Part shown: positions 13,729 through 56,430 of the stretch, piece after piece
Layout: the number at the start of each line of letters is the position of its first letter
Numbering within the stretch: the first letter of the stretch is position 1
The notes under the pieces: generated by a model
What the model was told of the DNA's origin: nothing
The model's database searches: none
The model's input: only the letters and a program-made list of their open reading frames with translations
Program-made: the position numbers and the translations under genes
NCBI RefSeq assembly: GCF_000224785.1
Contig: NZ_AGAV01000018.1
Location: forward strand, 186,001-250,000
From: Lentibacillus jeotgali
GTDB lineage: Bacteria; Bacillota; Bacilli; Bacillales; Amphibacillaceae
Reading direction: 5' to 3'
Length of the DNA stretch: 64,000 nt

Positions 13729-13880
13729 GATCGGCCGTCCCTTCATGGCATTATAGTTTTGTCTGGTATTGAAATTATCTATGTCTAATAATTAAAATTA
13801 TATATTTTTATAATTTTTAAATCAAATTTATAATAGACTTAAAGAAAAAAATAATTCCCGGGATTTATTTTTAAAATGAT

Positions 13881-13896
13881 ATGAAAGTGGTTTCAA
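13881..13896 (+). promoter_or_regulatory. cre-like site before the methylcitrate operon
   Basis: ATGAAAGTGGTTTCAA matches the relaxed CcpA consensus WTGNNARCGNWWWCAW with one mismatch (TG for CG in the core). Its flanks form the symmetric TGAAA/TTTCA arms. The mmg operon of B. subtilis is known to be catabolite-repressed, which fits. Confidence 0.5.
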
Positions 13897-13924
13897 TGAG
13901 GAATAGATGAGGAGGTTCATGATA

Positions 13925-15028: not shown

Positions 15029-15100
15029 GCGCGGTCGATTACAATTCAAAGTAATAAAGTTGAAATCGAAAACTTCGGGCAAAAGGAAAGGAAGTTGATG

Positions 15101-16537: not shown

Positions 16538-16554
16538 GAAGGAGGACCCTATGT

Positions 16555-26701: not shown

Positions 26702-26725
26702 ATTAACAAAAAGGAGGAGGAAAAA

Positions 26726-28081: not shown

Positions 28082-28125
28082 TTTTTACGACTATGACAAA
28101 CTCGCTGGATGGGAAGGTTATATAC

Positions 28126-29073: not shown

Positions 29074-29088
29074 GGAGGATTTCAAATT

Positions 29089-30864
29089 ATGGTCAACCAA
29101 ACAGAAGAAAGGAAGCAGGCAGTTAATCAGAAACAGAAAATGACACCAAGTGAAGCTATCGTGGAAACTTTGGTGGCGGAAAACATTAAGGAAGTCTACG
29201 GCATTGTGGGCTCGGCTTTTATGGATATGCTTGATTTATTCCCAGCAGCGGGCATCCGGTTTATCCCGGTGCGGCATGAACAAAGCGCTGGTCACATGGC
29301 AGATGCCTACGAGCGTGTTTCCGGCACGGCAGGTGTTATTGTTGGGCAAAATGGACCGGGGATCACCAACATGGTTACGTCCGTTGCGGCAGCGAACCAG
29401 GCTCACAGCCCGCTGGTTGTGATTTCACCGTCTGCTGGCACAAACGCAATTGGTATGGATGGTTTCCAGGAAGCTAATCAGGTATCGATTTTTAAAGACA
29501 TTACCAAAGAAACGGTGCAGGTAACCAATAAAAACCGGGTTGCCGATAAACTTCGGACGGCATTCCGGATTGCTTATGCCGAGCGTGGGCCGGTTTTGTT
29601 CGATATTCCGCGTGATCTGTTTTACGGTGAAGTGGAAGATGTGATTCTGGAACCGCATCAGTACCGTGCCGATAAACGAGGGATTGGTGATCCTGCGTCG
29701 CTTGAAAGAGCGGTAGACCTATTGAAGAACGCCAAGAATCCGGCGATCATTTCCGGCCGGGGCTCAGTAGATGCGGAGGGTGTTGATTCCGTCGTGAAAA
29801 TTGCCGAGCATTTGACAGCACCCGGAGCAACGGCTTATATGCATAATGACGCCTTCCCGGCCGATCATCCATTGGCGGTAGGGCCGATCGGTTATATGGG
29901 CGCCAAATCAGCCATGTATTCACTGCAGGAAGCCGATGTTGTTCTGGCTGTCGGAACACGCCTGTCACAGTTCGGAACGCTGCCGTGCTATGATATTGAC
30001 TATTTCCCGACGCATGCCAAAATCATTCAAATCGATATCAATCCGCGCCAGATCGGACGGACGCATCCGGTTGAAGTGGGCATCATTGGCGATGCGAAAG
30101 CAGCAAGTGATGAGATCTATCGTCAGCTGAAACTGGCTATGCCGTCACCTGAAAAGGATAACGAACGGATCCAGGCTGTCACTAAGCGGAAGGAAGAGTG
30201 GGAGCAGGAGCTGGTGGATTCGGCTATGGAAGATGGCGACCCAATCAACCCAAGACGCGCCTTGCTTGAGATGACGAAAGCAATGCCAGAGAACGCGATT
30301 GTATCGTCGGATATCGGCAACGTATCGTCAACGGCGAATGCTTATTTGAAATTTAACCAGACCCGCCGTCATATTGCGGCCCTGACATTCGGCAACACCG
30401 GCTTTGCCTATCCGGCTGCCCTCGGTGCGCAGCTTGCCGAACCGGATGCACCTGTATTTGCGATCGTCGGTGACGGGGCATGGGGCATGAGCCTGCATGA
30501 AGTGAGTACAGCCGTTGAACAGAATATCCCGGTTATTGCCTGCGTGTTTAATAATAAGGCATGGGCCGCTGAGAAAAAGAACCAGGTTGATTATTATGAT
30601 GACCGCTATGTGGGTTCCGATATTAAAGCGCCTGAATTCGCTGAGGTAGCAAAGTCTATGGGCGCATTGGGCTACACCATCGATAAACCGGAAGACATTG
30701 GTCCGGCAATTGAAGACGTTCTAAAACAGCGCAAGCCTGCCGTTTTGAACATTTATGTTGATGGCACACAGCTGGCGCCGCCGTTCCGTAAAGATGCTTT
30801 GAAGATGCCGACTCGTCATTTGGATAAGTATAAGCATCTTGATTATAGTGAGTGGGGTCAATAG
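29089..30864 (+). CDS. xsc: Sulfoacetaldehyde acetyltransferase
   Basis: A thiamine diphosphate enzyme that converts sulfoacetaldehyde and phosphate to acetyl phosphate and sulfite, the key desulfonation step of taurine breakdown. The 591 residues have the three-domain ThDP fold. The cofactor-activating Glu lies in [20 protein letters not shown], and the ThDP/Mg motif [17 protein letters not shown] is at about 461-490. The conserved Xsc stretch [14 protein letters not shown] is present. AAGGAGG precedes the ATG. A strong terminator follows. No phosphate acetyltransferase gene is next to it, unlike many proteobacterial loci. Confidence 0.95.
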
Positions 30865-40110: not shown

Positions 40111-41094
40111 TTGTTACAAAGGAAGCTTACTGATATTGAAGGCATAAAAGTGGGACATGAACAAGATTATAATGGAGCTACGGGCAGTACTGTTATTTTA
40201 TGTGAAGAGGGAGCAGTAGCTGGCGTCGATGTAGAAGGGGGTTCGCCAGGAACTCGTGAAACAGCGCTTCTCTCTCCTGTAAATAGAGTTGATAAGGCAC
40301 ACGGAATCCTACTGTCCGGAGGAAGCGCTTTTGGGCTAGATGCTGCGGCAGGCATTATGGAATATTTGGAAGACCATAACTCAGGATTTGATGTCGGTGT
40401 AACTAAAGTTCCAATCGTACCAGGGGCAATACTGTTCGATTTAGGTTTAGGGGATTACAAAGCAAGGCCGGATAAAAAAATGGGGCTACAAGCGTGTAAA
40501 AATGCTGCTGAAGATTATTGTAAAGAAGGTACTATTGGTGCAGGTACGGGAGCAACAGTTGGAAAAGTCTTAGGAATGGAAAGAGCTATGAAAGGTGGTT
40601 TAGGTACCTATTGTATTCAAGTGGGGGAATTAATGGTCGGTGCTATGGTTGCTGTGAATTGCTTTGGAGATGTCATTAACCCGCAGACCGGCGAAATCAT
40701 CGCTGGTGCATTCACGAAAGACGGACACTTTGTAAACACTGAGGAATTTATGATTAAAGAATTTGAAAATCAGCAAATTAAAAATCAGGAAAATACGACG
40801 ATTGGAGTAGTTGTTTCCAATGCAAAATTCAATAAAGCCGAGGCTAATAAACTTGCCTCCATGGCTCATGATGGCTTTGCGAGAACAATGCGTCCGTCTC
40901 ATACTATGGTAGATGGGGACACAATTTTTGCACTAGCAACAGGAGAAGTTGAATGTGACCTTGATTTAGTCGGACTCTTAGCTGCAAATGTAATGGGAGA
41001 GGCTGTTGTAAGAGCAATAAAGAAGGCAACCTCGTTACATGGGGTGACCAGTTATTCTGATTTAAGCAGGAACAGTTATAATAGATGTTGGTAA
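40111..41094 (+). CDS. P1 family peptidase (DmpA / beta-aminopeptidase type)
   Basis: An N-terminal-nucleophile-type hydrolase of the DmpA/BapA family, 327 residues. These proteins cut themselves before a Ser or Thr to make two chains; here the likely site is in ENTTIGVVVSNA, with T229 or T230 as nucleophile. Family marks GGSPGTRET and LSGGSAFGLDAA are clear. Known members hydrolyse N-terminal D- or beta-amino acid amides and peptides. The start is TTG with ATGGAGGG upstream. It is a single gene with its own promoter and no signal peptide, so it acts in the cytoplasm. Its substrate is open; beta-alanyl compounds would suit this window. Confidence 0.9.
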   Translation: MLQRKLTDIEGIKVGHEQDYNGATGSTVILCEEGAVAGVDVEGGSPGTRETALLSPVNRVDKAHGILLSGGSAFGLDAAAGIMEYLEDHNSGFDVGVTKVPIVPGAILFDLGLGDYKARPDKKMGLQACKNAAEDYCKEGTIGAGTGATVGKVLGMERAMKGGLGTYCIQVGELMVGAMVAVNCFGDVINPQTGEIIAGAFTKDGHFVNTEEFMIKEFENQQIKNQENTTIGVVVSNAKFNKAEANKLASMAHDGFARTMRPSHTMVDGDTIFALATGEVECDLDLVGLLAANVMGEAVVRAIKKATSLHGVTSYSDLSRNSYNRCW

Positions 41095-41384: not shown

Positions 41385-42083
41385 CTATTCATTCACCATT
41401 TCTTCATTATTTTTGATCATGTCTTGAACGATATCACTTGAATTAAATTCAAGGTTTCCCTTTATTAAGTCCAGATAGAATTTATGTGTGGTTAATGTAC
41501 GTTTAATGTTTTTAGAGTTTTTAAAGTGTATCATTTTTGGCTTTATTATTTCATAAATTGTTTTTCCGATTTCAATAACAAAAGGATTATTAGTTGCTTC
41601 CAGTACTGCATAATGGAATTCCAAATCAATTTCGGCAAGTTCTTCAGGACTTAATTCCGGTTTCATTCTTTCAACTTGTGATTGATAGACTTTCTCTATG
41701 TAACTAATATCTCTGTCTTCCTTGGTGATAATCATATTCATGAGCAGTACCTCGAAATGTTGCCTGAATTTAATCAATTCTTCCATGTTATTTCTGTGCA
41801 TTATCAAACTGAAGATCAAAGGATTTAAGGTGAAATGCGATAAGTTATTTGTTATAAACATCCCCTCACCTCGTTTTATTTGTATAACACCAATAGCTTC
41901 TAATATCTTTATTGCTTCTCTAACGGGTGTTCTACTGACTCCTATTTGTTCCATTAATTCTTTTTCTGTAGGTAATTTATCACCGGGTTTTAATTTTCCA
42001 TTGAGAAGGTTATCTTTAATCATATTTACAATTTCAGATGAAATAGTGCGGCTTAAATTAATATTTCCAATTGATAATTCCAT
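41385..42083 (-). CDS. FadR-type GntR regulator (FCD) of the candidate pantothenate operon
   Basis: A 232-residue GntR regulator: winged helix (LPTEKELMEQIGVSRTPVRE, about 38-57) and all-helical FCD ligand domain with metal-site-like D-x-x-FH (DLEFHYAVLEATNN). It is divergent from the six-gene operon at 42335 with a 250-bp gap that holds a 26-bp palindrome of the kind FadR dimers bind and a cre site. FCD proteins commonly sense organic or keto acids; pantoate, dimethylmalate or 2-oxoisovalerate would fit the proposed pathway. The 290 bp between it and the P1 peptidase hold only an imperfect hairpin near 41270-41320. Confidence 0.9.
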   Translation of the reverse strand: MELSIGNINLSRTISSEIVNMIKDNLLNGKLKPGDKLPTEKELMEQIGVSRTPVREAIKILEAIGVIQIKRGEGMFITNNLSHFTLNPLIFSLIMHRNNMEELIKFRQHFEVLLMNMIITKEDRDISYIEKVYQSQVERMKPELSPEELAEIDLEFHYAVLEATNNPFVIEIGKTIYEIIKPKMIHFKNSKNIKRTLTTHKFYLDLIKGNLEFNSSDIVQDMIKNNEEMVNE

Positions 42084-42172
42084 AACACCAACCCCTCGAG
42101 TTTTTATTTAATTTTCTGTAATCTATTGTTTACAAAGCATTCAGAATTTGCTAAAGTAAATAAACATAATAC

Positions 42173-42198
42173 TATTACATCATACGTATGATGTAATA
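42173..42198. promoter_or_regulatory. 26-bp perfect palindrome, putative FadR-type operator
   Basis: The half-site TATTACATCATAC (42173-42185) is followed without gap by its exact complement. It lies between the divergent FadR-type gene and the six-gene operon. GntR/FadR dimers bind such short palindromes, so it may regulate both directions. Confidence 0.7.
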
Positions 42199-42280: not shown

Positions 42281-42294
42281 TGTAAGCGTTAACG
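42281..42294 (+). promoter_or_regulatory. cre site before the candidate pantothenate operon
   Basis: TGTAAGCGTTAACG matches the cre core in all but the last base, 41 bp before the first gene. Confidence 0.65.
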
Positions 42295-42334: not shown

Positions 42335-42631
42335 ATGAAGGACAACCATTTTAATGATTATTGGCGGTTGAAGGTAGCAAACCGTGAAGCTGTAGTAGGC
42401 TGTGTTCTTGCTGCCATCAATATTCTATGGTGGTTCGGTTTTGCTTATGGTTTGGGTTCTAAGCCTCCTGAAGAATACACATATGTATTAGGTTTCCCGG
42501 CTTGGTTCTTCTGGAGTTGTATAGTCGGATACCTTGTTATGGTGGCCTTAGTATTCATTGTTGTTAAATTTGTATTGAAAGAGGTTCCATTAGACGATGA
42601 AGTCGATGATGAAGAGGAGGAGTCGGCATGA
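42335..42631 (+). CDS. YhdT-like small membrane subunit (DUF997)
   Basis: A 98-residue protein with two membrane helices (VVGCVLAAINILWWFGFAYG and the WFFWSCIVGYLV region) and a strongly acidic tail. YhdT/DUF997 proteins are encoded directly before PanF sodium:pantothenate symporters, as in E. coli, and this gene overlaps the PanF-like gene by 4 nt. I chose ATG at 42335 because GGAAGGTGA lies just upstream; GTG 42326 would be inside that site. It probably assists the symporter. Confidence 0.85.
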   Translation: MKDNHFNDYWRLKVANREAVVGCVLAAINILWWFGFAYGLGSKPPEEYTYVLGFPAWFFWSCIVGYLVMVALVFIVVKFVLKEVPLDDEVDDEEEESA

Positions 42632-44097
42632 ATTGGGGCGTTGTTACACCATTATTAATATTTCTCTTAATCATTTTTATGATAGGGATCTGGTCCAACC
42701 GGAAGATGAATTCATCAAAATCCTTCCTGGGTGACTATTTTTTAGGAAGCCGTGAATTCGGCGGGATGGTTCTTGCTATGACAATGGTTGCTACATACGG
42801 CAGTGCATCAAGTTTTCTGGGTGGTCCTGGAGCTGCGTACTCAATTGGTTTCGGCTGGGTACTCTTGGCAATGACCCAGGTGGCTACTGGCTATTTTGTA
42901 CTGCTTGTTCTCGGCAAGAAGTTTGCAATTGTGACACGACGCTATAATGCAGTTACCCTTATTGATTTTTTGAAGGAAAGATATAAAAGTACGCCTGTCG
43001 TTTTATTGTCGGCACTAAGTATCATTATCTTTTTGTTCTCCGCAATGGCTGCACAGTGGGTTGGCGGTGCATACTTAATTCAATCGTTAACTGGCTTGTC
43101 ATATACAGCAGCCCTGTTTATCTTTACGCTGTCCGTTTTAATCTATGTCACCATTGGCGGTTTCAGGGCTGTTGCGATTACTGATACAGTACAGGGGATT
43201 GTGATGTTTTTGGGAACATTCGTGCTGTTGATCGCCGTTATTATGGCGGGTGGCGGTTTGTCCAATATCTTCTCTGAATTGGTTGCCGAAAATCCTAATT
43301 TTGTCACACCATATGGCCAGGACGGGCAGCTGTCGGCCGCTTACATTTCGTCTTACTGGATACTTGTTGGCGTCGGCGTCATCGCTTTGCCACAGGTTAC
43401 AGTCCGGGCAATGTCATACAGAAATGCTAAATCAATGCACCGTGCCATTATGATAGGCACAGTGGTAGTTGGTTTCATTATGCTCAATATGCACTTGATT
43501 GGTGTCTTTGCCAGACCCGTACTGCCGGGGATCGAGGTTGCAGATCAGGTCATACCATTAATCGCTTTGGATGTTCTACCTTCATGGCTGGCAGGGATTG
43601 TACTGGCAGCACCATTGGCCGCGATGATGTCAACGGTTGACTCGCTATTACTGCTTGTTAGTTCATCCATCGTTAAAGATGTTTATATTAATTATTTTAA
43701 ACCTGAAGCGTCTTTTAAACACGTCAAAAAGGTCAGTATGGGCGTCACAGCTGTTATCGGAGTTATTGCCTTTCTGTTATCCATCGACCCGCCTGAACTG
43801 CTCATATTCTTGAATCTATTTGCGTTTGGCGGATTGGAAGCAGCGTTCATATGGCCGATTGTACTGGGACTATATTGGAAGCGTGCAAATAAATCTGGCG
43901 CCATCGCATCGATGATAACTGGTATTGTTTCTTATGTCGGCATCCATTTCTATAATGAAGCCTATGGTGATTTGTTTGGTGTTCACACAGTAACAGTGCC
44001 TGTTTTCCTGTCACTGCTAGCCTTTGTTGTATTTAGCCTTATTTTGAGAGAAACGGCATATGAATTCCCTGAATCTAAATTGAATAAAGAAGCATAA
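42628..44097 (+). CDS. PanF-like sodium:pantothenate symporter (SSS family)
   Basis: A 489-residue SSS transporter with about 13 helices. It is most like PanF: N-terminal NRKMNSSKSFLGDYFLGSREFGG, the FLGGPGAAY stretch, and the sodium-site helix AAMMSTVDSLLLLVSSSIVKDVY. It is translationally coupled (ATGA overlap) to a YhdT-like subunit, as PanF is. PanF imports pantothenate with sodium. In an otherwise catabolic operon this suggests import of pantothenate or a similar hydroxy-acid amide as growth substrate rather than for CoA synthesis. Confidence 0.88.
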   Translation: MNWGVVTPLLIFLLIIFMIGIWSNRKMNSSKSFLGDYFLGSREFGGMVLAMTMVATYGSASSFLGGPGAAYSIGFGWVLLAMTQVATGYFVLLVLGKKFAIVTRRYNAVTLIDFLKERYKSTPVVLLSALSIIIFLFSAMAAQWVGGAYLIQSLTGLSYTAALFIFTLSVLIYVTIGGFRAVAITDTVQGIVMFLGTFVLLIAVIMAGGGLSNIFSELVAENPNFVTPYGQDGQLSAAYISSYWILVGVGVIALPQVTVRAMSYRNAKSMHRAIMIGTVVVGFIMLNMHLIGVFARPVLPGIEVADQVIPLIALDVLPSWLAGIVLAAPLAAMMSTVDSLLLLVSSSIVKDVYINYFKPEASFKHVKKVSMGVTAVIGVIAFLLSIDPPELLIFLNLFAFGGLEAAFIWPIVLGLYWKRANKSGAIASMITGIVSYVGIHFYNEAYGDLFGVHTVTVPVFLSLLAFVVFSLILRETAYEFPESKLNKEA

Positions 44098-44110
44098 GGA
44101 GTGGTAATGC

Positions 44111-45346
44111 ATGAATTTGACTAAAACAGACAGACTTAAAAGGGATTACGAGAGGGCTGTCTCACTGACGCAGCAGCTAGTTCAAATACCGAGTGTCTAT
44201 CGCCCGGAAGAATCGGATGGCAATGAAGAAAAAGTAGCCAAGTTTGTAGCCGATTATTTGCGTGACTTAGGCATTGATGTATATGTTGAAGAAGTTGAAC
44301 CAGGAAGACCGAACGTTATTGGTGTTATTGATTCCGGCAAACCAGGGAAAACGCTTTTGTTTGAGGGTCATACTGACGTTGTGACAGAAGGCGATCGGGA
44401 AAGCTGGCAATATGATCCGTTTGGAGCGGAGATAGTGGACGGTCTGATGTACGGTAGAGGCACAAATGATACGAAGGGTAATTTGGCCTGTATGATTACA
44501 GCTGTCCGTTCAATTCTGGAAGATAAAGAAGCATTCAGCGGTAAAATTATCTTGTGTATTCCGGTCGATGAAGAAAGCATGATGATCGGCATCAAACATT
44601 TCATCGAGCAGGGCTGGGCGGATGATGTTGACGGTGCAATCATTTGTGAACCGGAAGAAAATCAGATTTGTGTCGCACAGCGCGGGGCACTGAGAATTCA
44701 AATCACTGTTAATGGAAAGATGGCTCATGGCGCCATTTCCTGGAGCGGCATCAATCCGAATTGGCGTATGGCTAAAATAATCACTGCGCTTGAAGCATTG
44801 GAGAAGGAAGAACAAGAGACACATGGCGAACATCCTTATTTAAAATGGCCAAGCATAACGCCAACGATTGTAAAAGCACCTGTAAAAGGTGATGCACAGA
44901 TTAATGTCATTCCGGAAAAGGCCATGACAACATTAGATATCAGAACGATCCCTTCTCAGGACCATGATAGATTAATCCAAAAAATTGAAGCTATTTTCAA
45001 GAAGTTGGAAAAAGAAGATGAAGATTTTAATGTTACGTATAAGATTATTGAAAACCGCCCTGCCACAGAAACGGATCAGGCAAACCCGGTTGTGGAGGCT
45101 GTTCATGATGCAGTGAAGACCACGTTGGATAAAGAACCGGAATATAATGGGGTTCCCGGTGCGACAGACGGCACCTTCCTGCATATTCATGGCGTGTCGA
45201 TTGTCACAATAGGGGCGGGTGACAGAGAAGTACCGCATCACATTAACGAATATGTCGACATTAATGAACTGGGCGAGACGACGGAAATCTATCGTCAAGC
45301 CGCTTTAAACTTTTTAAATGAGGATGGTAAGAACCGTGGTAAGTAA
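44111..45346 (+). CDS. M20 family metal-dependent amidohydrolase (ArgE/DapE type), candidate pantothenase
   Basis: A 411-residue M20 peptidase/deacylase. The di-zinc site is visible: H87 and D89 in GHTDVV, D120 in GRGTND, the catalytic E154 with E155, E180 in ICEPEE, and a C-terminal His in PHHINEY. A lid domain lies between. M20 enzymes split N-acyl bonds of amino acids, including beta-alanine derivatives. By gene order I propose hydrolysis of pantothenate (N-pantoyl-beta-alanine) to pantoate and beta-alanine. Other N-acyl amino acids cannot be excluded. It follows the symporter by 13 bp. Confidence 0.85.
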   Translation: MNLTKTDRLKRDYERAVSLTQQLVQIPSVYRPEESDGNEEKVAKFVADYLRDLGIDVYVEEVEPGRPNVIGVIDSGKPGKTLLFEGHTDVVTEGDRESWQYDPFGAEIVDGLMYGRGTNDTKGNLACMITAVRSILEDKEAFSGKIILCIPVDEESMMIGIKHFIEQGWADDVDGAIICEPEENQICVAQRGALRIQITVNGKMAHGAISWSGINPNWRMAKIITALEALEKEEQETHGEHPYLKWPSITPTIVKAPVKGDAQINVIPEKAMTTLDIRTIPSQDHDRLIQKIEAIFKKLEKEDEDFNVTYKIIENRPATETDQANPVVEAVHDAVKTTLDKEPEYNGVPGATDGTFLHIHGVSIVTIGAGDREVPHHINEYVDINELGETTEIYRQAALNFLNEDGKNRGK

Positions 45347-46415
45347 AATTGCGATCATTCCAGGGGATGGAATCGGAAAAGAAGTTATGAAAGAAGCTAT
45401 TAAAGTATTAAACGTGCTGGAATCTGACTACTATTTAAATGTTGCGTATGATGTATTCGATTGGGGCAGTGATTACTATATCGAGAATAATCGCATGCTG
45501 CCGGACAATGGTCTTGAAAAACTGAAAAACTATGATGCTATTTTACTCGGGGCAGTTGGTGATAATCGGGTCCCGGACGATATTCCGGTATGGGAATTAA
45601 TCATGCCTATTCGAAAAACATTTCAGCAATATGTTAATTTCCGTCCAGTTAAGCAGTTAAAAGGCGTAGAAAGTCCGCTGAGCAGTTCACAAAGCGAGAA
45701 GATTGATTTTGTCATTATGCGTGAGAACTCGGAGGGCGAGTATTCTGATTCGGGCGGTTTGATGTTTCAGGGGCAGGACAAGGAGATGGCGATTCAAAAT
45801 TCAATCTTCACGAAGCAGGGGATAAAAAATATTGCTGAGTTCGCCTTTGACTATGCCCGTAGACATGATTACAGAAAGGTGACCAGCGCGACAAAATCCA
45901 ATGCGATTACTCATACGATGAAGTTTTGGGATAAAGAAGTCGGGGAAATAGCTGAATCTCATAGCGATATAGAATATGAAAAAGTTTATGTTGATGCGTT
46001 AGCGGCAAAGTTTGTGCAACAGCCCGAGGAATTCCAAGTGGTATTGGCTTCAAATTTATTCGGAGATATTTTGTCAGACCTAGGTTCCTCAGTGGCAGGG
46101 GGACTCGGAATTTCCCCTTCTGCAAACATCAATCCGAGTGGCGAATTTCCGTCGATGTTTGAACCTGTTCATGGCTCAGCCCCTGATATAGCTGGAAAAG
46201 GATTAGCGAATCCAATTGCCCAAGTGTGGTCGCTTGCACTGCTGCTCGAACATATTGGAAGGAAAGATTTACATGATCATATTTTAAAGGCCATTGAAAA
46301 ACTATTATCCGACAAATCCAAAGTAACAAAGGATATTGGTGGATCAGCCAGCACCGAAGAAACTGGAGATGAATTAATGAAAATTTTACGTGATAACAAG
46401 GTGGGAATAACATGA
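45336..46415 (+). CDS. D-malate/tartrate-type beta-decarboxylating dehydrogenase, candidate 3,3-dimethylmalate dehydrogenase
   Basis: An NAD-linked enzyme of the isopropylmalate/isocitrate/D-malate dehydrogenase family, about 359 residues. Motifs: IPGDGIGKEV at the N-terminus, MRENSEGEYSD, the catalytic Tyr/Lys region, DALAAKFVQQPEEFQV and the NAD site EPVHGSAPDIAGKG. It is closest to TtuC/DmlA (D-malate, tartrate). These oxidise an (R)-2-hydroxy-dicarboxylate and remove the beta-carboxyl. (R)-3,3-dimethylmalate is such a compound and would give 2-oxoisovalerate. GTG at 45336 is preferred (protein begins MVSKIAIIPGDG); ATG 45318 lacks a ribosome binding site. It overlaps the M20 gene. Confidence 0.87.
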   Translation: MVSKIAIIPGDGIGKEVMKEAIKVLNVLESDYYLNVAYDVFDWGSDYYIENNRMLPDNGLEKLKNYDAILLGAVGDNRVPDDIPVWELIMPIRKTFQQYVNFRPVKQLKGVESPLSSSQSEKIDFVIMRENSEGEYSDSGGLMFQGQDKEMAIQNSIFTKQGIKNIAEFAFDYARRHDYRKVTSATKSNAITHTMKFWDKEVGEIAESHSDIEYEKVYVDALAAKFVQQPEEFQVVLASNLFGDILSDLGSSVAGGLGISPSANINPSGEFPSMFEPVHGSAPDIAGKGLANPIAQVWSLALLLEHIGRKDLHDHILKAIEKLLSDKSKVTKDIGGSASTEETGDELMKILRDNKVGIT

Positions 46416-47161
46416 CTTTTAAAGATAAAACCATTGTCGTTGCCGGGGCTGGCGGTGGAATGGGAAAAGCAGTCGTTGAAACACTCCTCAAGGAAAACGC
46501 AAATGTCGTGGGCTGTGACTTGAATATCGCATCGCTTGAGGAACTCGAGGGCGTTGACCGGTTCCTTGGAATAGAAGGTAATCTGCTTGAGGAAGAAAAA
46601 GTGAAATCAGTTTTCAGCAATGCAAAAGAAACATTTGGAGGAATTCACGGGCTTGTCAATGCAGCTGGCATCGCTCAAAGTTCAACACCGATTGAGCAAG
46701 TGGACTTGAAAGAATGGTACAAACTTATTGACATTAATTTAACGATGACATTTTTAACCTGTCGAGAAGCTGCCAGTTATATGAAAGAACAAGGTGGCGG
46801 TGCGATCGTCAACATCGGCTCTGTTTCAGTGACCAGGCCTAGGCCCGGCCTGCAGTCATATGTTGCTTCAAAAGGAGCAGTTGAATCGTTTACTAAGGCG
46901 TTGGCATTAGAGCTGTCAGACAACCAGATTAACGTGAATCTTCTTCACCCCGGTCCAAGTGATACAAACATGCTTGGTCAATTTGCTCAGAAGGGTGCAG
47001 ACATTGAGAAAATGAAAGACACGGTATTCAAGGACAGCGTGCCGATGGGAAGACTTTTGGAGCCTCAGGATATCGCAAATTCAGTTAAATTTTTATTATC
47101 TGATGAGGCCAGCATGGTAACCGGAAGTGTATTTCACGTTGATGGCGGCAGAAACATTTGA
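46412..47161 (+). CDS. SDR oxidoreductase, candidate pantoate 4-dehydrogenase
   Basis: A classical short-chain dehydrogenase, 249 residues. Cofactor motif AGAGGGMG (11-18), NAAG (83-86), catalytic S137, Y150 and K154 (YVASK), and the C-terminal HVDGG. D36 after the second strand suggests NAD over NADP. Its ATG overlaps the preceding stop by 4 nt, so translation is coupled. In the proposed pathway it would oxidise the primary alcohol of pantoate to aldopantoate. SDRs act on many alcohols, so the role rests on the operon. Confidence 0.88.
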   Translation: MTFKDKTIVVAGAGGGMGKAVVETLLKENANVVGCDLNIASLEELEGVDRFLGIEGNLLEEEKVKSVFSNAKETFGGIHGLVNAAGIAQSSTPIEQVDLKEWYKLIDINLTMTFLTCREAASYMKEQGGGAIVNIGSVSVTRPRPGLQSYVASKGAVESFTKALALELSDNQINVNLLHPGPSDTNMLGQFAQKGADIEKMKDTVFKDSVPMGRLLEPQDIANSVKFLLSDEASMVTGSVFHVDGGRNI

Positions 47162-47192
47162 CAGCAGTTAAGTAACTTGAGGTGGTGGTTTG

Positions 47193-48635
47193 ATGGAAGC
47201 ATTAAACATGTATATCAACGGCAAATGGGAAGACAGTCACGACAAAGAAACCATAAATGTCAATAATCCGTCCACGGGAGAGGTCATGACAACGATTCCT
47301 CGTGGCAAGAATGATGATGTTGATAAAGCGGTAAGAGCTGCTAAAGATTCATTCGTCAGTGAAGAATGGCGACGCGTCAAACCGTTTGAGCGAGGGAGAA
47401 TCCTGTGCGAGGTAGTGGCGCAGCTTAAAGAAAATCGGGATGAGCTGGCAAGGCTGGAAACAATGGACGTCGGCAAACCCTTAACACAGGGCTATGCTGA
47501 TATCGATGCTGCCATAAGATATTTTGAATTTTATGGAGGTGCAGCAGATAAAGTAATGGGCGACACAATCCCGATTGAGGACGGTCTCATCGATTATGTG
47601 ATCCGTGAACCAATTGGTGTGACAGCCCATATTGTACCATGGAATTATCCCATTCAAATATTATCGCGTAGCGTGGCTGCAGCGATAGCGATGGGCAATA
47701 CGGTCGTCGTAAAAAGTGCAGAAGATACGCCCCTGACAGCCGCAAAAATAGCGGAATACTTTGATCAGACAGATTTGCCTGAAGGTGTCTTTAATCATGT
47801 GACGGGTTACGGGTATGAAGCAGGCGCTGCTTTATCGTCTCATCCGCTGATTAATCATTTAACATTTACAGGCTCGGTTGGAACAGGGACAGCTGTTGCG
47901 AATGCTGCCACGTCGAATGTCGTGCCTGTGACACTTGAATTAGGCGGCAAATCGCCTAACATCGTTTTCTCGGATTGTGATGTTGATAAGGCGGTCGAAG
48001 GTGTTGTAAAAGCGATTATTCAGAATGCCGGGCAAACATGTTCTGCCGGATCAAGATTATTGATTGAAGAATCGTTTAAGCAAACATTCTTGGATAAGTT
48101 GGTTAATAAATTTAAAACATTATCGGTCGGTCCAGCTATAGATGATCACAACCTTGGCCCGATATTAAACCAAAAACAATTTGACCGGATTCTGGAATTT
48201 ATTTCGTTGGCTGAGCAGGAAGGAACTGTACTGACTGGCGGCAAACGCGTGAAGTATGAACAATACGAGAATGCGTGCTATCTGGAGCCAACCATCATCG
48301 ATAATCTCTCACTCAACAGCAAGGCTGCACAAGAAGAAATCTTTGGCCCGGTCCTGTCGGTGTTTACTTTTAAGAATGAGCAGGAAGCGATTGACATTGC
48401 CAACAGCACTGACTATGGTCTTGTGACAGGCATTTGGACAAAGGACATTAATAAAGCGCATTTATTAATGAGCCGAATCGATTCAGGCCAGGTTTTCATT
48501 AATAATTACGGTGCCGGCGGTGGGATACAAATGCCATTCGGCGGTTACAAGAAAAGCGGCTTTGGACGTGAAAAAGGCTGGATAGCTTTATACAATTATA
48601 CGCAAGTGAAGAATGTGGCGATTAAGTTTGATTAG
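47193..48635 (+). CDS. NAD-dependent aldehyde dehydrogenase, candidate aldopantoate dehydrogenase
   Basis: An ALDH-superfamily enzyme (betaine aldehyde dehydrogenase subgroup), 480 residues. Catalytic C283 in NAGQTCSAGSR, general base E249 in LELGGKSPN, and the NAD-binding FTGSVGTG are in place, as is PWNYP (149-153). GAGGTGGTGG precedes the ATG at 47193. It is the last gene of the operon, followed by a terminator. In the proposed pathway it would oxidise aldopantoate to 3,3-dimethylmalate. If that pathway is wrong, it would still process an aldehyde formed by the SDR. Confidence 0.9.
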   Translation: MEALNMYINGKWEDSHDKETINVNNPSTGEVMTTIPRGKNDDVDKAVRAAKDSFVSEEWRRVKPFERGRILCEVVAQLKENRDELARLETMDVGKPLTQGYADIDAAIRYFEFYGGAADKVMGDTIPIEDGLIDYVIREPIGVTAHIVPWNYPIQILSRSVAAAIAMGNTVVVKSAEDTPLTAAKIAEYFDQTDLPEGVFNHVTGYGYEAGAALSSHPLINHLTFTGSVGTGTAVANAATSNVVPVTLELGGKSPNIVFSDCDVDKAVEGVVKAIIQNAGQTCSAGSRLLIEESFKQTFLDKLVNKFKTLSVGPAIDDHNLGPILNQKQFDRILEFISLAEQEGTVLTGGKRVKYEQYENACYLEPTIIDNLSLNSKAAQEEIFGPVLSVFTFKNEQEAIDIANSTDYGLVTGIWTKDINKAHLLMSRIDSGQVFINNYGAGGGIQMPFGGYKKSGFGREKGWIALYNYTQVKNVAIKFD

Positions 48636-48645
48636 AATAAGTCGG

Positions 48646-48684
48646 TCCTGGAAGTCATAAATTGTGATTTCCGGGATATTTTTT
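48646..48684 (+). terminator. Terminator of the six-gene operon
   Basis: TCCTGGAAGTCA pairs with TGATTTCCGGGA (two mismatches), followed by TATTTTTT. Confidence 0.85.
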
Positions 48685-49105: not shown

Positions 49106-50533
49106 ATGCGTACATTAATTAGAAACGGGATGATTGTAACAGCTGTTGACGAATTTGTTGGGGATGTACTTATAGATGGCGAGAAAATAATTGCTGTCGG
49201 TGAAAATTTAGATTCGATGGCTGACCAAATAGTAGATGCGAAAGGGAAATATGTTCTTCCTGGCGGGGTAGATCAGCATGTCCATTATTCCTTTGAGTTT
49301 AAAGGCGAGCGCGTAAGAGGATTTGAAACCTCAAATGCTGCTGTTGCTGGGGGAACCACAACGGTTGTTGAATTTGTGAATCAAGAACAGGGCAAGGGGA
49401 TGGCAGATACCATTTTTGATATGGATAAGAACGAAGTTGCGCATCAGGCCATGGCAGATTATTCGTACCATGCTGTCGTATGTGACCCAGTGGATACAAC
49501 ATTTGAGGAAATTGCGGATTTGCCTAATAGGGGAATTTCGACTGTAAAATTGTTCATGGCTTATAAGGGAATGCCGTTTCACAGTGATGATGAGGCCCTT
49601 TACAAAGCATTAAAGGCAGCAAAGGAAGCCGGCGTCACGGTCATGGTTCATTGTGAGAATGCCGATGTTATCGATCTTCTTCAAAAGAAACTGATCTCCG
49701 AAGGTAAGACTGATCCATATTACCATGCAGTATCAAGACCAGCAAGAGTGGAACTGGAGGCGACTCAGCGTGTAATTAATCTTGCAGCTATGGCTGAAGC
49801 CCCAGTTTACATTGTTCATGTCACAGCCGAAAATGTGATGAAAGCCATTCGGAACGCCAAAAATGAAGGGCTCCCGGTTTATGGCGAAACATGTGTCCAA
49901 TATCTGATGCTTGATGAAGATAATTTAGCTGAGCCTAATTTTGAAGGGGCTAAATATGTGATGTCGCCTGCACTCCGTACTAAAACGGACCAGGAGGCCT
50001 TGTGGCAAGCAGTTGATAATGGCTGGCTGAACGCTATCAGTACCGACCATTGCGGATTTGACTGGGCCTCACAAAAACATATGGGCGTTGATGACTTTAC
50101 CAATATCCCAAATGGTGCACCTGGTGTAGAAAATCGCCTAGGCATTCTTTGGACATATGGAGTAAACACTGGAAAGCTCTCCAGACAGCAGTTTGTTGAC
50201 CTATTTGCAACGACACCTGCAAAGAATATGGGATTAGATCATTGCAAGGGACATATTGGTGTTGGTATGGATGCGGATATTGTTTTATATGACCCTAATG
50301 AATCGTCGATTATATCGAATGAGAACAGTCTGCACGGTGTCGACTATAGTACGTTTGAGGGGTATAAACAGGAAGGGAAAGTGGATAAAGTATTCCTTCG
50401 CGGCAAACTCATGGTTAATGATGGAGAATTCATTGGTGAAAAAGGTGATGGAAGGTTTATCCACGGAGAACCGTTTGCCCTGTGCTTTGATGATACGAAA
50501 GAAACCACAGAGTTGGATAAATCGCGGAGTTAA
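49106..50533 (+). CDS. hydA: Dihydropyrimidinase (D-hydantoinase)
   Basis: Opens the ring of dihydrouracil or dihydrothymine to N-carbamoyl-beta-amino acids, the second step of reductive pyrimidine degradation. 475 residues, amidohydrolase fold. The di-metal site is complete: H58 and H60 (DQHVH), carbamylated K148 (STVKLF), H182, H238 and D314 (STDHCGF). AGAGGAGG precedes the ATG. It heads an operon with preT, preA, an NCS1 permease and a carbamoylase, which fixes its role as dihydropyrimidinase rather than a general hydantoinase. Confidence 0.95.
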   Translation: MRTLIRNGMIVTAVDEFVGDVLIDGEKIIAVGENLDSMADQIVDAKGKYVLPGGVDQHVHYSFEFKGERVRGFETSNAAVAGGTTTVVEFVNQEQGKGMADTIFDMDKNEVAHQAMADYSYHAVVCDPVDTTFEEIADLPNRGISTVKLFMAYKGMPFHSDDEALYKALKAAKEAGVTVMVHCENADVIDLLQKKLISEGKTDPYYHAVSRPARVELEATQRVINLAAMAEAPVYIVHVTAENVMKAIRNAKNEGLPVYGETCVQYLMLDEDNLAEPNFEGAKYVMSPALRTKTDQEALWQAVDNGWLNAISTDHCGFDWASQKHMGVDDFTNIPNGAPGVENRLGILWTYGVNTGKLSRQQFVDLFATTPAKNMGLDHCKGHIGVGMDADIVLYDPNESSIISNENSLHGVDYSTFEGYKQEGKVDKVFLRGKLMVNDGEFIGEKGDGRFIHGEPFALCFDDTKETTELDKSRS

Positions 50534-50631
50534 TAACCTGGATAATGTTTTTTCCTATACGCTATTAATTATTCGATACGAAGGAAATGATAATTTAAAT
50601 TTCTATCATAAAGAAAAGGAGGGGCTTATTA

Positions 50632-52005
50632 TTGGGAAATCTACTACAAAATTTACTGTCGGATGAAGATCTGGCCCAAAATTTTGCGGAGTCGAAGCCA
50701 AGTTATAATGCGCAAGAAGCACTTGATGAGGCAAACCGCTGCCTATATTGTTACGATGCACCTTGTATAAAGGCCTGTCCAACTGGGATTGATATCCCTA
50801 GTTTTATTAAAAAGATTGCGTCCGGAAATTTAAAAGGCTCGGCAAAAACCATTATGGAAGAGAATCCCATCGGCGCAAGCTGTGCGCGTGTTTGTCCAAC
50901 AGAGGAATTATGTGAAGGGGCATGTGTCCTTAATGATTCTACTAAGCCGATTATGATTGGTGACTTACAACGCTTTGCAACAGATTGGTCAATTAAGAAT
51001 GAACAAGTCATGTTTAAAGTTGGAAAGAAGAACGGAAAGCGAATTGCGATTGTTGGCAGTGGTCCAGCAGGTTTATCGGCGGCTCGCGAGCTAGGACGAC
51101 TGGGTTATGAGGTGACGGTTTTTGAATCTAAGGGTGAAGCCGGTGGATTAGACACCCATGGTATTGTTCCATTTCGGCTTCCAAAGGACATTTCGTTATG
51201 GGAGGTGGAACAGGTTGAGAGCTTAGGTGTTGAGATTCGTACAAATGCCGAAGTTGGTAAAGATATTTTTGCAGCGGACCTTGTGAGTGATTATGATTCC
51301 GTCATACTTACTGCAGGAATGTCAAAGGTGCCGATGTTAGGTATTGATGGGGAAGATTTAGAAGGCGTTTACGACGCGATTGATTTGGTTGAAGAAACAA
51401 AGAATGAAAACTATTCGACTGAATTTATTGGGAAGCGAGCTGCTGTCATTGGGGCAGGAAATACAGCGATCGATGGTGCGACGACATCGGTAAGGCTTGG
51501 TGCCGATAATGTTAAAATTCTCTATCGGCGGACAGAAGCGGAAATGTCAGCGTACGATTTTGAATACGAATTTGCCAAACAGGACGGGGTTGAGTTCAGG
51601 TGGTTAATTGCACCTAAGCGTTTGATTGGTGACCGTAATGACCATGTAAAACAGATAGAATGTGTTCGCATGGAATTAAAAGAAGCAGGATCTGATGGAC
51701 GCATGCGACCGGTAGAAATAGAAGGATCCGAATTTTTAATGGATGTGGATATTGTCATCAAGGCGATTGGTCAAACGCGACATCATCAATTAATCGATGA
51801 GTTTGGCTTGGAACATCATAATGGTGTTGTAAAGGTAGACAATGAAACATACTTGACTTCCCAACCGAAAGTCTATGCTGCAGGCGATGTGGTCTTTGAA
51901 AAAGGTGTTGGCGAAGCAATGGCGGTATCTGCTGCACAGCAGGGAAAAGAGACAGCCTATGCCATACATCAGCAATTTAAAGCTTCGGAATTAGGTAATG
52001 TGTAA
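50632..52005 (+). CDS. preT: Dihydropyrimidine dehydrogenase, NADH-binding subunit
   Basis: The FAD/[4Fe-4S] subunit that takes electrons from NAD(P)H and passes them to PreA for reduction of uracil and thymine. 457 residues. An N-terminal glutamate-synthase-like iron-sulfur domain (CLYCYDAPCIKACPTGIDI, then CARVCPTEELCEGAC) is followed by two dinucleotide folds (VGSGPAGLSAA for FAD, IGAGNTAIDGA for NADH). The start is TTG with AAGGAGGGG upstream. It follows hydA by 98 bp and precedes preA. Confidence 0.94.
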   Translation: MGNLLQNLLSDEDLAQNFAESKPSYNAQEALDEANRCLYCYDAPCIKACPTGIDIPSFIKKIASGNLKGSAKTIMEENPIGASCARVCPTEELCEGACVLNDSTKPIMIGDLQRFATDWSIKNEQVMFKVGKKNGKRIAIVGSGPAGLSAARELGRLGYEVTVFESKGEAGGLDTHGIVPFRLPKDISLWEVEQVESLGVEIRTNAEVGKDIFAADLVSDYDSVILTAGMSKVPMLGIDGEDLEGVYDAIDLVEETKNENYSTEFIGKRAAVIGAGNTAIDGATTSVRLGADNVKILYRRTEAEMSAYDFEYEFAKQDGVEFRWLIAPKRLIGDRNDHVKQIECVRMELKEAGSDGRMRPVEIEGSEFLMDVDIVIKAIGQTRHHQLIDEFGLEHHNGVVKVDNETYLTSQPKVYAAGDVVFEKGVGEAMAVSAAQQGKETAYAIHQQFKASELGNV

Positions 52006-52035
52006 AAAGGGACTACGAATGATTGGAGGATGAAT

Positions 52036-53304
52036 ATGGCTGATATTAGTATCAACTTTGCAGGGATTGAGTCCCCTAACCCCTATTGGCTCGCATCTGC
52101 ACCACCAACAAATACAGGTTATCAAGTGCAACGTGCATTTGAAGCTGGATGGGGTGGAGCTGTATGGAAAACTCTTTGTGAACCGGTGTTGAATGTTACC
52201 TCGCGTTTTGGTGCGCATCACTTTAATGGCCAGCGGGTAGCAGGCTTTAACAACATTGAGTTAGTCTCCGATCGTCCCATTGAGGACAACTTAAAAGAGA
52301 TCTATGAAACAAAGAAGCGTTTTCCGGATCATCCCATTATTGCTTCATTAATGGTGGAACCACAGCGGGATAAATGGCATGAAATTGTCAAGCGGGTTCA
52401 AGATGTAGGGGTAGATGGGTTTGAATTAAATCTAGGTTGTCCGCATGGCATGTCAGAACGAGGAATGGGATCAGCGGTAGGCCAGCATCCAGACTTAGTA
52501 GAAAAGTCAACACTGTATGCGAAGGAAGTCGCTGAGGTGCCAGTCATTACTAAACTAACACCGAACATTACAGATATAACCGCCACGGCAAGAGCTGCAG
52601 AACGCGGTGGAGCTGATGCCGTAAGTATGATCAATACTATCAATAGTTTAATAGGCGTGGACCTCGATACATGGAACCCAACACCTAATGTGAATGGAAA
52701 GGGCGCCCATGGCGGATACTGCGGGCCGGCTGTTAAACCGATTGCCTTAAATATGATTGGAGAATGTGCGCGGCAGCCGGACATTAATATTCCGATTTCG
52801 GGAATAGGTGGTATTTCAACTTGGCAGGATACCGTTGAATTTATGCTGATGGGGTCCGGGGGTGTACAGGTATGTACAGCCGCCATGCATCATGGATTCA
52901 GTATTATTGATGATTTGACCGAGGGTTTAAGTAATTACTTGGATGATAAAGGGATTGCTTCTGTAAGTGAACTCGTTGGCAAATCAGTTGAAAAATATAC
53001 TGACTGGAGCAACCTGGATTTAAATCATCGAATGGTTGCCCGTATTAATAATGATATTTGTATTAATTGTAATAAGTGTCATATTGCTTGTGAGGATACA
53101 GCCCATCAGTGTATCGATATGCTGATAGATGAAAATGGAAATGATTATTTAGAGGTCAGGGAAGACGAATGTGTCGGATGTAACCTTTGCTCAATCGTTT
53201 GTCCGGTTGAGGGGGCAATCGATATGGTAGATTTGGAGCCGACCGAACCGCCAATGTCCTGGAACAATCGAGAGTCCGCTTTAGAAATGCTGAATAATAA
53301 ATAG
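52036..53304 (+). CDS. preA: Dihydropyrimidine dehydrogenase, catalytic subunit
   Basis: Reduces uracil or thymine to the 5,6-dihydro form. About 422 residues: an FMN TIM barrel of the dihydroorotate dehydrogenase type (SAPPTN, GFELNLGCPHGMSERGMG, TKLTPN, SGIGGI), then a ferredoxin tail with two [4Fe-4S] motifs (CINCNKCHIAC and CVGCNLCSIVCP). The family active-site Cys lies in LGCPHGM. ATG at 52036 is preferred since GGAGG ends 6 nt upstream; ATG 52030 overlaps that site. Confidence 0.95.
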   Translation: MADISINFAGIESPNPYWLASAPPTNTGYQVQRAFEAGWGGAVWKTLCEPVLNVTSRFGAHHFNGQRVAGFNNIELVSDRPIEDNLKEIYETKKRFPDHPIIASLMVEPQRDKWHEIVKRVQDVGVDGFELNLGCPHGMSERGMGSAVGQHPDLVEKSTLYAKEVAEVPVITKLTPNITDITATARAAERGGADAVSMINTINSLIGVDLDTWNPTPNVNGKGAHGGYCGPAVKPIALNMIGECARQPDINIPISGIGGISTWQDTVEFMLMGSGGVQVCTAAMHHGFSIIDDLTEGLSNYLDDKGIASVSELVGKSVEKYTDWSNLDLNHRMVARINNDICINCNKCHIACEDTAHQCIDMLIDENGNDYLEVREDECVGCNLCSIVCPVEGAIDMVDLEPTEPPMSWNNRESALEMLNNK

Positions 53305-55194: not shown

Positions 55195-56430
55195 ATGGAA
55201 AAACAAAAGGTACTTATCAATGGTGAGCGGTTAAAAAATACCGTTGAAGAGTTCGCCGATTTTGGCAGAACCGAAAACAATGGCGTTAACCGTTTAGCAT
55301 TATCTGAAATGGACCTAAAAGTCAGAAAGCATTTCCAATCCGAGTGTGAAAAGCTGGGGATGATGGTCGTGTGGGATGATATGGCCAATATGTACGCAAC
55401 ATTGTCAGGAACGAATAATGATCAGCCTCCATTAGTTGTCGGGTCGCATTTGGATTCTGTAAAAAAGGGAGGACGTTTTGACGGTGTGCTCGGTGTACTG
55501 ACGGGACTGGAAGTAGTCCGAACGATTGTTGAAAATGGGATCAAGCCACAAGTACCGATCGTTGTTGCTAATATTACCAATGAAGAAGGTGCACGATTTG
55601 AACCCGCAATGATGTCTTCCGGTGTGCTTTCCGGACATTTTGATAAAACGGCCATGCTGCGGTCAACGGATTCGGAAGGTGTTACATTTGGAGAAGCGCT
55701 TAAAAACAGTGGTTTTGAAGGAAAAGAAGAGAATCGCTTAAAAGATGCAGCTGCTTTTTTAGAGTTACACATTGAACAGGGGCCTGTATTAGAAAGTGAA
55801 TCACTGCAGATTGGTGTCGTTGAAGGCGTCGTTGGCATGGTCAACTATGAGATCGAGGTAAACGGTGATTCCGACCATGCAGGTACAACGCCAATGCCAA
55901 TACGACAAGATGCATTGTTTGCTGCCAATAACTTGATCACTGAAATACGTGAGAAAATGAATAAATTGGATGATAAATTGGTATATACGATAGGCAGAAT
56001 GAATGTAAGTCCAAACATTCATACCGTCATACCCAATAAAGTTGTGTTTACCTTGGAGGCAAGACATCAAGATGCCAACACTATCAGGCAAGTAGAGGAA
56101 ATTATTCAAGGGCTCCCGGAATCTTCGGGTAAGGAAAAATGTAACGTGAAAACAACTAAACAATGGGACCGGAATACAGTATGGTTTGATGAGCATATCG
56201 TCAATTCACTGGAACAATCGGCTAAAAATATCGGATATTCCTATAAGCGTATGGTAAGTGGTGCTGGACATGATGCACAGTTTATTTCAACCTATAATCC
56301 AACTGCCATGATATTTGTACCGAGTGTAAATGGTAAAAGCCATGCGGAAGATGAACTGACACCATGGGAAGACTGTGAAAACGGGGTTAATGTTATGCTG
56401 CAAACAGTTTTGGGCCTAGCCACAAAGTAA
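55195..56430 (+). CDS. Zn-dependent carbamoyl-amino-acid hydrolase (beta-ureidopropionase)
   Basis: Hydrolyses N-carbamoyl-beta-alanine to beta-alanine, carbon dioxide and ammonia, completing pyrimidine breakdown. 411 residues of the M20 hydantoinase/carbamoylase subfamily. Metal ligands H85 (GSHLDSV), D96 (GGRFDG), E131 in NEEGARF, H192 (LHIEQGP) and a C-terminal His in KSHAEDELTPW are present, as is the substrate-binding NIHTVIPN. GGAGG precedes the ATG. N-carbamoyl-L-amino acids are also used by close relatives. It is the last gene of the operon. Confidence 0.93.
   Translation: MEKQKVLINGERLKNTVEEFADFGRTENNGVNRLALSEMDLKVRKHFQSECEKLGMMVVWDDMANMYATLSGTNNDQPPLVVGSHLDSVKKGGRFDGVLGVLTGLEVVRTIVENGIKPQVPIVVANITNEEGARFEPAMMSSGVLSGHFDKTAMLRSTDSEGVTFGEALKNSGFEGKEENRLKDAAAFLELHIEQGPVLESESLQIGVVEGVVGMVNYEIEVNGDSDHAGTTPMPIRQDALFAANNLITEIREKMNKLDDKLVYTIGRMNVSPNIHTVIPNKVVFTLEARHQDANTIRQVEEIIQGLPESSGKEKCNVKTTKQWDRNTVWFDEHIVNSLEQSAKNIGYSYKRMVSGAGHDAQFISTYNPTAMIFVPSVNGKSHAEDELTPWEDCENGVNVMLQTVLGLATK

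Follow-up and report, generated by a model that had tools for sequence, protein, structure and literature searches.

Gene content of the locus

At positions 42335-48635 of a 64,000-nucleotide stretch of the Lentibacillus jeotgali genome (contig NZ_AGAV01000018.1, positions 186,001 to 250,000; hereafter the window) lie genes for YhdT, PanF, an M20 hydrolase, a beta-decarboxylating dehydrogenase, a short-chain dehydrogenase/reductase (SDR) and an aldehyde dehydrogenase (ALDH), a six-gene set that the original prediction, made by reading the window's letters, put forward as a candidate complete operon degrading pantothenate (vitamin B5). All six open reading frames are present and open, the junction gaps of -4, +13, -29, -4 and +28 nt agree with the tight packing it described, and NCBIfam and Pfam profile matches place all six proteins in the families it named (Table 1). 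The YhdT gene starts at ATG 42335, with an in-frame alternative at GTG 42326, and the ALDH gene at TTG 47190 or ATG 47193; purine-rich sequence lies 5′ of YhdT, PanF, M20, SDR and ALDH, and none is clear 5′ of the dehydrogenase. Judged by these families, a single unit encodes a transporter, an amide hydrolase, oxidising enzymes for an alcohol and for an aldehyde, and an oxidative decarboxylase.

Table 1. Genes and sites of the operon and its surroundings (window positions; match scores against profile cut-offs where given)
Feature	Position	Strand	Evidence
YhdT/DUF997 small membrane protein, PanF partner	42335..42631	+	PF06196 105 bits, cut-off 26.3
PanF-type sodium/pantothenate symporter, operon paralogue	42628..44097	+	TIGR02119 694 bits, cut-off 328
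M20 metallo-amidohydrolase, proposed pantothenase	44111..45346	+	TIGR01910 273.2 bits, cut-off 217.6
Beta-decarboxylating dehydrogenase, proposed (R)-3,3-dimethylmalate dehydrogenase	45318..46415	+	PF00180 (Iso_dh) 316 bits
SDR, proposed (R)-pantoate 4-dehydrogenase	46412..47161	+	PF13561/PF00106
ALDH, proposed (R)-4-dehydropantoate dehydrogenase	47190..48635	+	PF00171 542 bits
GntR/FCD regulator, divergent from operon	41385..42083	-	PF00392 79.1 (cut-off 27), PF07729 33.5 (cut-off 24.3)
Promoter-like site TTTACA-17-TAAAGT	42129..42157	+	consensus match only
26-bp perfect palindrome, putative GntR operator	42173..42198	.	inner 22 bp matched once in window, never in 100 shuffles
cre-like site (CcpA catabolite repression)	42281..42294	+	one mismatch in window
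Terminator-like hairpin, 15 pairs, 10 nt past ALDH stop	48645..48677	+	consensus match only
S58-family peptidase, neighbour	40111..41094	+	PF03576 155.8 bits
Dihydropyrimidinase; PreT/PreA-like, reductive pyrimidine degradation	49106..53304	+	TIGR02033 512 vs 393 bits (49106-50533)
Hydantoinase/carbamoylase-type M20 hydrolase, ureidopropionase-like (putative role)	55195..56430	+	TIGR01879 413 vs 204 bits

Proposed pathway

We infer the substrates and the order of the steps as follows. PanF and YhdT would import pantothenate, whose amide the metal-dependent M20 hydrolase would cut, giving (R)-pantoate and beta-alanine; oxidation of the pantoate C4 alcohol to (R)-3,3-dimethylmalate, probably with NAD, would fall first to the SDR and then to the ALDH, and the tartrate/D-malate-type dehydrogenase would decarboxylate dimethylmalate to 2-oxoisovalerate. 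Beta-alanine would pass to the products of aminotransferase, alanine dehydrogenase and semialdehyde dehydrogenase genes 16-20 kb downstream, and the divergent GntR regulator would act, in response to an inducer from the pathway, at the 26-bp palindrome that closely follows the promoter. We consider it very likely that the operon encodes such an inducible, catabolite-controlled pathway, using pantothenate as a carbon and nitrogen source. The predicted function draws support from the mutual exclusivity of two hydrolases, the clade of the operon PanFs, linkage to beta-alanine genes, the behaviour of the last three genes as a unit, a cre-like site and the distribution of PanC. Gene order, protein families, intact catalytic residues, the co-occurrence and displacement of genes, and a palindrome common to many operons are all read directly from the DNA.

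Two unrelated hydrolases in one slot

Across 159 genomes surveyed in the family, 13 have a close M20 (E <=1e-110), 12 have an unrelated amidase-signature gene (E <=1e-100), and none has both; at 9 loci the alternative protein, of about 491 amino acids, occupies the operon slot upstream of the dehydrogenase, between it and PanF in other members of the family. All 25 hydrolase-carrying genomes have a core dehydrogenase at >=54% identity, as against 2 of the 134 others (Fisher 3.7e-27), and the exclusivity of M20 and amidase within the 27 carriers has a probability of 5e-6, both figures ignoring kinship and depending on a 54% cut-off that was chosen after seeing the results, the next value being 51%. 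Conservation of the gene set, which the original prediction proposed as a check, is evident: of the 12 other genomes with a close M20, 8 have all six genes in the window's order (loci L054-L060 and L062), and in one of these (L055, genome G043) the dehydrogenase frame is split (L055:10697-11793). Among the 28 loci with a core-type dehydrogenase, as delimited by gene-neighbourhood thresholds set after seeing the results, M20 lies directly upstream of the core in 10 and the amidase in 9, making 19/28.

Locus L096 (genome G153) keeps the window's flanks (identities of 87% for the S58 peptidase, 90% for dihydropyrimidinase, 90% for PreT and 93% for PreA) and has a hydrolase of the amidase-signature family instead of M20. 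It reads as the replacement of a hydrolase in place between conserved flanks, and suggests a slot that requires an amide hydrolase for an unchanged substrate. Two unrelated putative pantothenases, one M20 and one amidase-signature, would be a refinement of the earlier reading. The M20 metal ligands and general base (H87, D89, D120, E154, E155, E180 and H376, aligned to DapE) are invariant in 13 rows; these residues, like those of the SDR, ALDH and dehydrogenase given below, are known to be catalytic in their families. Genome G083 has two amidase copies (L093:9791 and L094:9458), equal in score and identity to the query, far apart from each other and both away from its core operon.

A further set of loci associates the hydrolase or the core with peptide uptake. 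In L064, L065, L090 and L091, peptide-type ABC transporters and an S58 peptidase stand beside M20 or the core trio, the S58 homologues (48-49%) lying near the core in L065, L090 and L091 and near M20 in L064. This arrangement suggests a variant for growth on beta-alanyl or pantothenyl peptides.

The dehydrogenase-SDR-ALDH core

The dehydrogenase is found at E <=1e-110 in 38 of the 159 family genomes. At the 28 core loci the SDR follows it in 26 and the ALDH in 24, with the order dehydrogenase-SDR-ALDH kept in 24/28, and the YhdT-PanF pair belongs to the array in 21/28. One locus lacking the ALDH, L063, is in a genome (G149) that has a second, complete core in L070. A TRAP transporter accompanies the core, with no adjacent hydrolase, in L068 and L070; TRAP and PanF do so, again with no adjacent hydrolase, in L069; TRAP, PanF and M20 share a single array in L058 and L061; and in L065, L090 and L091 the core stands by itself near the peptide-type systems described above. 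Most simply read, the core would degrade pantoate, whether imported or derived from pantothenate. Genes for FAD-linked oxidases of the D-lactate/glycolate type (GlcD/GlcF-like by reading) adjoin TRAP-plus-core arrays at L061:507-3300 and L069:14148-16833.

The catalytic Arg/Tyr/Lys/Asp set of the dehydrogenase is invariant in 27 rows, the N109, S137, Y150, K154 tetrad of the SDR and its D36 in 22 rows, and C284, E250, N152 and K175 of the ALDH in 24 rows; the conserved Asp of the SDR suggests NAD as its cofactor.

Might the dehydrogenase instead be an ordinary D-malate or tartrate dehydrogenase, in an operon that handles a 2,4-dihydroxybutyrate-type or other hydroxy acid brought in by PanF-like or TRAP transporters? 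Its nearest solved relative is indeed a tartrate dehydrogenase (3flk, 377 bits), and TRAP genes stand beside the core in L058, L061, L068, L069 and L070 and beside the dehydrogenase alone in L097. But in a tree from which the split G043 sequence was left out by a length filter, and in which stops were written as X and two duplicate pairs included, the core dehydrogenases form a group of 27 rows (support 88/98), and all 27 share W-x-x-I-[ML]-P-I-R in the helix that we placed by comparison with 3flk and that presumably recognises the substrate. Outside this group, W-[GD]-[LS]-L stands in the helix in 18 of 22 rows, six of which share the P-I-R end and none the full core pattern; the remaining 4, two duplicate pairs representing the window genome's two other paralogues, are not matched by the helix search pattern. 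A hydroxy-acid pathway would also leave the amide hydrolase and the beta-alanine genes unexplained, and we regard it as highly unlikely.

The transporter

The operon PanF, at 49% identity to E. coli PanF, lies well over the TIGR02119 cut-off, and YhdT overlaps it by 4 nt in 21/21 core loci that have the pair. Membership of TIGR02119 is common in the family (115/159 genomes) and, among 14 named control genomes, is found only in E. coli; contig C29 of the window's genome carries a further PanF, 68% identical to the operon copy. Because the bit scores of operon and non-operon PanFs overlap near 700-710, the two kinds were placed by a tree, in which a single clade (21 rows, 100/100) unites most operon PanFs. 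The operon PanF of G149, that genome's only PanF match, groups with non-operon PanFs (fork 94/83), and the operon PanF of G056 splits off below the operon and non-operon groups on a long branch; these two placements suggest at least two recruitments into the operon. Two genomes without the operon, G148 and G115, each have their only PanF match within the operon clade, which suggests that members of this clade still carry pantothenate.

These placements bear on whether the operon degrades some other N-acyl compound, an N-acyl-beta-alanine or a pantothenate analogue, imported by a substrate-shifted PanF paralogue. Such a shift would fit the separation of most operon PanFs from the other PanF of the same genome, the breadth of the M20 family (60 NCBIfam matches), and the company that the M20 relatives of L064 and L065 keep with peptide-type ABC transporters and S58 rather than with PanF. 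Yet the sole PanF of G149 serves its operon from among the non-operon PanFs, the sole PanFs of the operon-less G148 and G115 fall within the operon clade, and the SDR, ALDH and decarboxylase steps match pantoate exactly; we consider this alternative unlikely, and pantothenate the far better candidate.

Regulation

The GntR/FCD protein is probably a repressor induced by a compound of the pathway, and the 26-bp palindrome its predicted operator, also probably. A GntR homologue at >=50% identity stands beside the core in 15/28 core loci, and a palindrome around TACATCATACGTATGATGTA scores over the threshold at 16/28 (null 0.8 hits per Mb): 5 of the M20 type, 7 of the amidase type, 2 with TRAP (L070 and L097) and 2 lone trios. 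The operator matrix was trained on 13 regions, and the matches in L086, L090 and L091 lie outside this training set. In L070, a TRAP-type core has the same GntR gene and the palindrome, as would be expected of a pantoate branch of the pathway. With <=3 mismatches allowed, this operon is the sole site of the palindrome pattern in the window's genome, seen on both of two redundant contigs, and in a genome-wide search the pattern occurs in 19/26 genomes, at the core operon in 14 and only elsewhere in 5, as against 3/26 for a reversed control.

The cre-like site, recognised by the cre consensus, has counterparts upstream of related operons. Of 13 related intergenic regions, 9 contain an exact match to the pattern TGWAANCGNTNNCA, which was fixed after seeing the results (background 0.10 per kb); 6 of the 13 match a second cre pattern, TGWNANCGNTNWCA, exactly (background 0.14 per kb). 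Such a site suggests carbon catabolite control and, with it, a carbon-catabolic operon. Promoter-like sites, of which the one in Table 1 is an example, number 28 in the region as against 21.6 in shuffles, and terminator-like hairpins 10 as against 5.8.

Fate of the products

If the hydrolase releases beta-alanine, genes for its catabolism would be expected nearby. Two such genes immediately precede the operon in L063, which is of the M20 type, and in L067, of the amidase type: one for a PRK07678-subfamily aminotransferase (cut-off 488; 776 and 748 bits) and one for a methylmalonate-semialdehyde dehydrogenase (TIGR01722, cut-off 448.5; 617 and 623 bits). We read the pair as a putative beta-alanine aminotransferase and malonate-semialdehyde dehydrogenase. 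In the window's genome a beta-alanine aminotransferase (BAPAT) - alanine dehydrogenase - MmsA array starts 1.1 kb past the window's end. The hydrolase lies <=30 kb, a distance chosen after seeing the results, from a beta-alanine catabolism gene in 15/25 genomes, as against 0.51-0.90 expected from random placement when kinship is ignored. The lower expectation uses high-identity matches (22/44 aminotransferase rows and 33/42 MmsA rows, with rows of the redundant contig C13, lower-identity rows and extra partial rows left out), and the higher one all but the C13 rows (43 aminotransferase and 41 MmsA rows), again with 15/25 observed.

Between the operon and the BAPAT array, genes for reductive pyrimidine degradation (dihydropyrimidinase, and PreT/PreA-like genes named from reading the open reading frames, with L096 homologues at 90-93%) would provide a second source of beta-alanine, and the S58 peptidase on the other side of the operon, of DmpA/BapA-like type, might release it from peptides. 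The whole region looks like a beta-alanine island. As for the other product, methylcitrate-cycle-like genes (by reading) lie in the window at 12859-17460, behind the TRAP-type core at L068:14566-18261 and near an amidase at L092:16999-19486; their proximity would fit the formation of propionyl-CoA from 2-oxoisovalerate.

Could the hydrolase serve salvage, splitting pantothenate so that its beta-alanine is reused for coenzyme A (CoA)? Prototrophic bacteria do reuse pantothenate-derived beta-alanine for CoA, according to a passage of PMC10393543. PanC, which would be needed for rejoining, was found by a PF02569 search in 13/25 carriers, with E. coli and B. subtilis as positive controls, and was not found by the same search in the window's genome or in 11 of the other 24. 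In these 12/25, rejoining pantoate and beta-alanine is unlikely, and hydrolysis is probably catabolic rather than a form of salvage. Three linked enzymes would moreover oxidise pantoate further, and the cre-like site is present; salvage thus seems barely plausible, and pantothenate catabolism is retained as the preferred function.

Neighbouring genes and contig redundancy

The operon appears on a second contig. C13 is 100% identical to the window's contig over >=33 kb (window 30677-64000), from its own first base. A true duplication of the operon was rejected: the copy is exact from the first base of C13, and BAPAT and MmsA follow on both contigs. We take the C13 copy as probable contig redundancy, and the assembly appears to hold redundant contig ends. 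Farther upstream in the window, at 25568-30864, genes for an alanine dehydrogenase, a class III aminotransferase, a LysR regulator and a thiamine-diphosphate enzyme lie in a row and resemble a taurine degradation cluster (Ald, Tpa and Xsc, names from reading the open reading frames).

Distribution beyond the family and points against the proposed function

Two of 397 other Bacillota genomes have a dehydrogenase match at E <=1e-118 and 50-53% identity, both without the trio; at one of them (L230) an SDR of 34% lies adjacent on the other strand. Of 82 plasmid records, 30 were listed, and the amidase is matched at 56-65% in 8 of these and at <=39% in the others; of 447 stretches of named genomes that encode an amidase relative the best 80 were kept. 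A peptide-type ABC ATPase stands at 15 of the 84 resulting proteobacterial amidase loci. In 24 proteobacterial genomes searched whole, dehydrogenase relatives reach <=51%, and none of 7 neighbourhoods has the trio; in L221, however, an ALDH (45%) accompanies a distant amidase (26%), and in L225 an SDR (32%) accompanies an amidase (29%). A proteobacterial version of the operon was rejected, there being no linked PanF or trio at the thresholds used. In Neorhizobium sp. NCHU2750 (L105:5971-11479) the amidase relative is preceded by genes that carry the annotations cytochrome c, glucose dehydrogenase and choline dehydrogenase; these may form a system for oxidising a related amide alcohol.

Several observations weigh against a pantothenate-degrading operon. 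First, the gene set is not intact everywhere: the dehydrogenase lacks an adjacent SDR or ALDH in L066 (G143) and L097 (G055), L072 (G154; L072:9355) has a short SDR and no ALDH, and the operons of G043, with its split dehydrogenase frame, and G154 look partly decayed. Second, the palindrome is missing at 12/28 core loci, which means that regulation is not uniform. Third, the core dehydrogenase clade has moderate support, and the 68% identity between the two PanFs of the window's genome means that the substrate of the operon copy could have shifted. Fourth, the destruction of a vitamin by a bacterium without PanC would be costly, and odd unless expression were tightly controlled. Finally, the operon was not found in 397 other Bacillota genomes, few of them of the same order or class, and at the thresholds used a tblastn search detected neither PanF nor any of the three core enzymes in the flanks of the 84 proteobacterial amidase loci (4 plasmid, 80 genome), where some flanks are short and the SDR threshold was strict enough for an annotated SDR in L104 to go uncounted; being unlinked to the other genes, the proteobacterial amidases may have another role there.

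We consider a wider proposition slightly more likely than not: that two unrelated pantothenases have been swapped in place within a dedicated vitamin B5 operon, that about half of the carrier species examined lack PanC and hence are probably unable to make the vitamin, that this operon holds the genes for all four enzymes of a route known only from biochemistry, and that the widespread lone amidase relatives of Alpha- and Betaproteobacteria are pantothenases too.

Significance and relation to known systems

If the proposed function is right, pantothenase, pantoate 4-dehydrogenase, dehydropantoate dehydrogenase and dimethylmalate dehydrogenase, gene-less for decades, would gain candidate sequences, and the destruction of vitamin B5 would become predictable from genomes. 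Some bacteria that are unable to make the vitamin may eat it, and the locus would offer a clear case of the in-place replacement of one hydrolase family by another.

The open-access literature is consistent with the claim of the original prediction that a full gene set had not been described, and that consistency is as far as it goes: in this literature we saw no gene assignment for pantothenate catabolism. Excerpts of individual papers describe the protein identity of pantothenase as unknown in 2023 (PMC10393543), tabulate, as of 2007, 1.1.1.84 and 1.2.1.33 as orphan activities that had been validated (PMC1940265), and include pantothenate amidohydrolase, 3.5.1.22, in the synthetic direction in a genome-scale model of Lactobacillus casei, in a passage that names no gene (PMC4231531). 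In other excerpts the number 3.5.1.22 is assigned to another enzyme (PMC4549626), the phrase "pantothenate amidohydrolase" occurs (PMC13404326), and an account of B. subtilis CoA biosynthesis does not contain the word "hydrolase" (PMC11487621). Each enzyme family and the chemistry of the pathway are known; the gene set, its two interchangeable hydrolases and its regulation appear to be undescribed in the open-access literature searched.

Each component resembles a known system and departs from it. The transporter belongs to the same TIGR02119 family as E. coli PanF and forms the same YhdT-PanF pair, but in E. coli the pair lies beside accC and prmA, whereas the window copy is its genome's second PanF and lies in a catabolic-looking operon. 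The M20 hydrolase shares TIGR01910 and the conserved metal-ligand positions with ArgE/DapE-type enzymes; unlike DapE and ArgE proper it falls under the equivalog cut-offs (TIGR01246 166.8 vs 361.8; TIGR01892 183 vs 297.7), and, in contrast to such deacylases, all 13 genomes with a close operon M20 also have the core dehydrogenase. The slot amidase has 6-aminohexanoate-cyclic-dimer hydrolase (3a2p) as its nearest solved structure and keeps K80, S156 and S180, presumably the catalytic Lys-Ser-Ser, invariant in 7 rows, yet it scores under the cut-offs of the 25 NCBIfam models listed and occupies the M20 position in 9 core loci. The dehydrogenase shares family and catalytic residues with tartrate/D-malate dehydrogenases, whose chemistry is oxidative beta-decarboxylation, but it falls just under the equivalog cut-off of TIGR02089 (468.8 vs 470.4 bits), and its recognition helix, VWELIMPIRK, differs from that of 3flk.

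The closest precedent is biochemical. The Pseudomonas route employs pantothenase (EC 3.5.1.22), pantoate 4-dehydrogenase (1.1.1.106), dehydropantoate dehydrogenase (1.2.1.33) and dimethylmalate dehydrogenase (1.1.1.84), and the operon would encode the same steps in number and chemistry, with uptake in addition. Where the two may differ is in the hydrolase, which in the operon is proposed to be either an M20 metalloenzyme or an amidase-signature enzyme; the Pseudomonas pantothenase forms a pantoyl-enzyme, a property that would fit the amidase-signature type.

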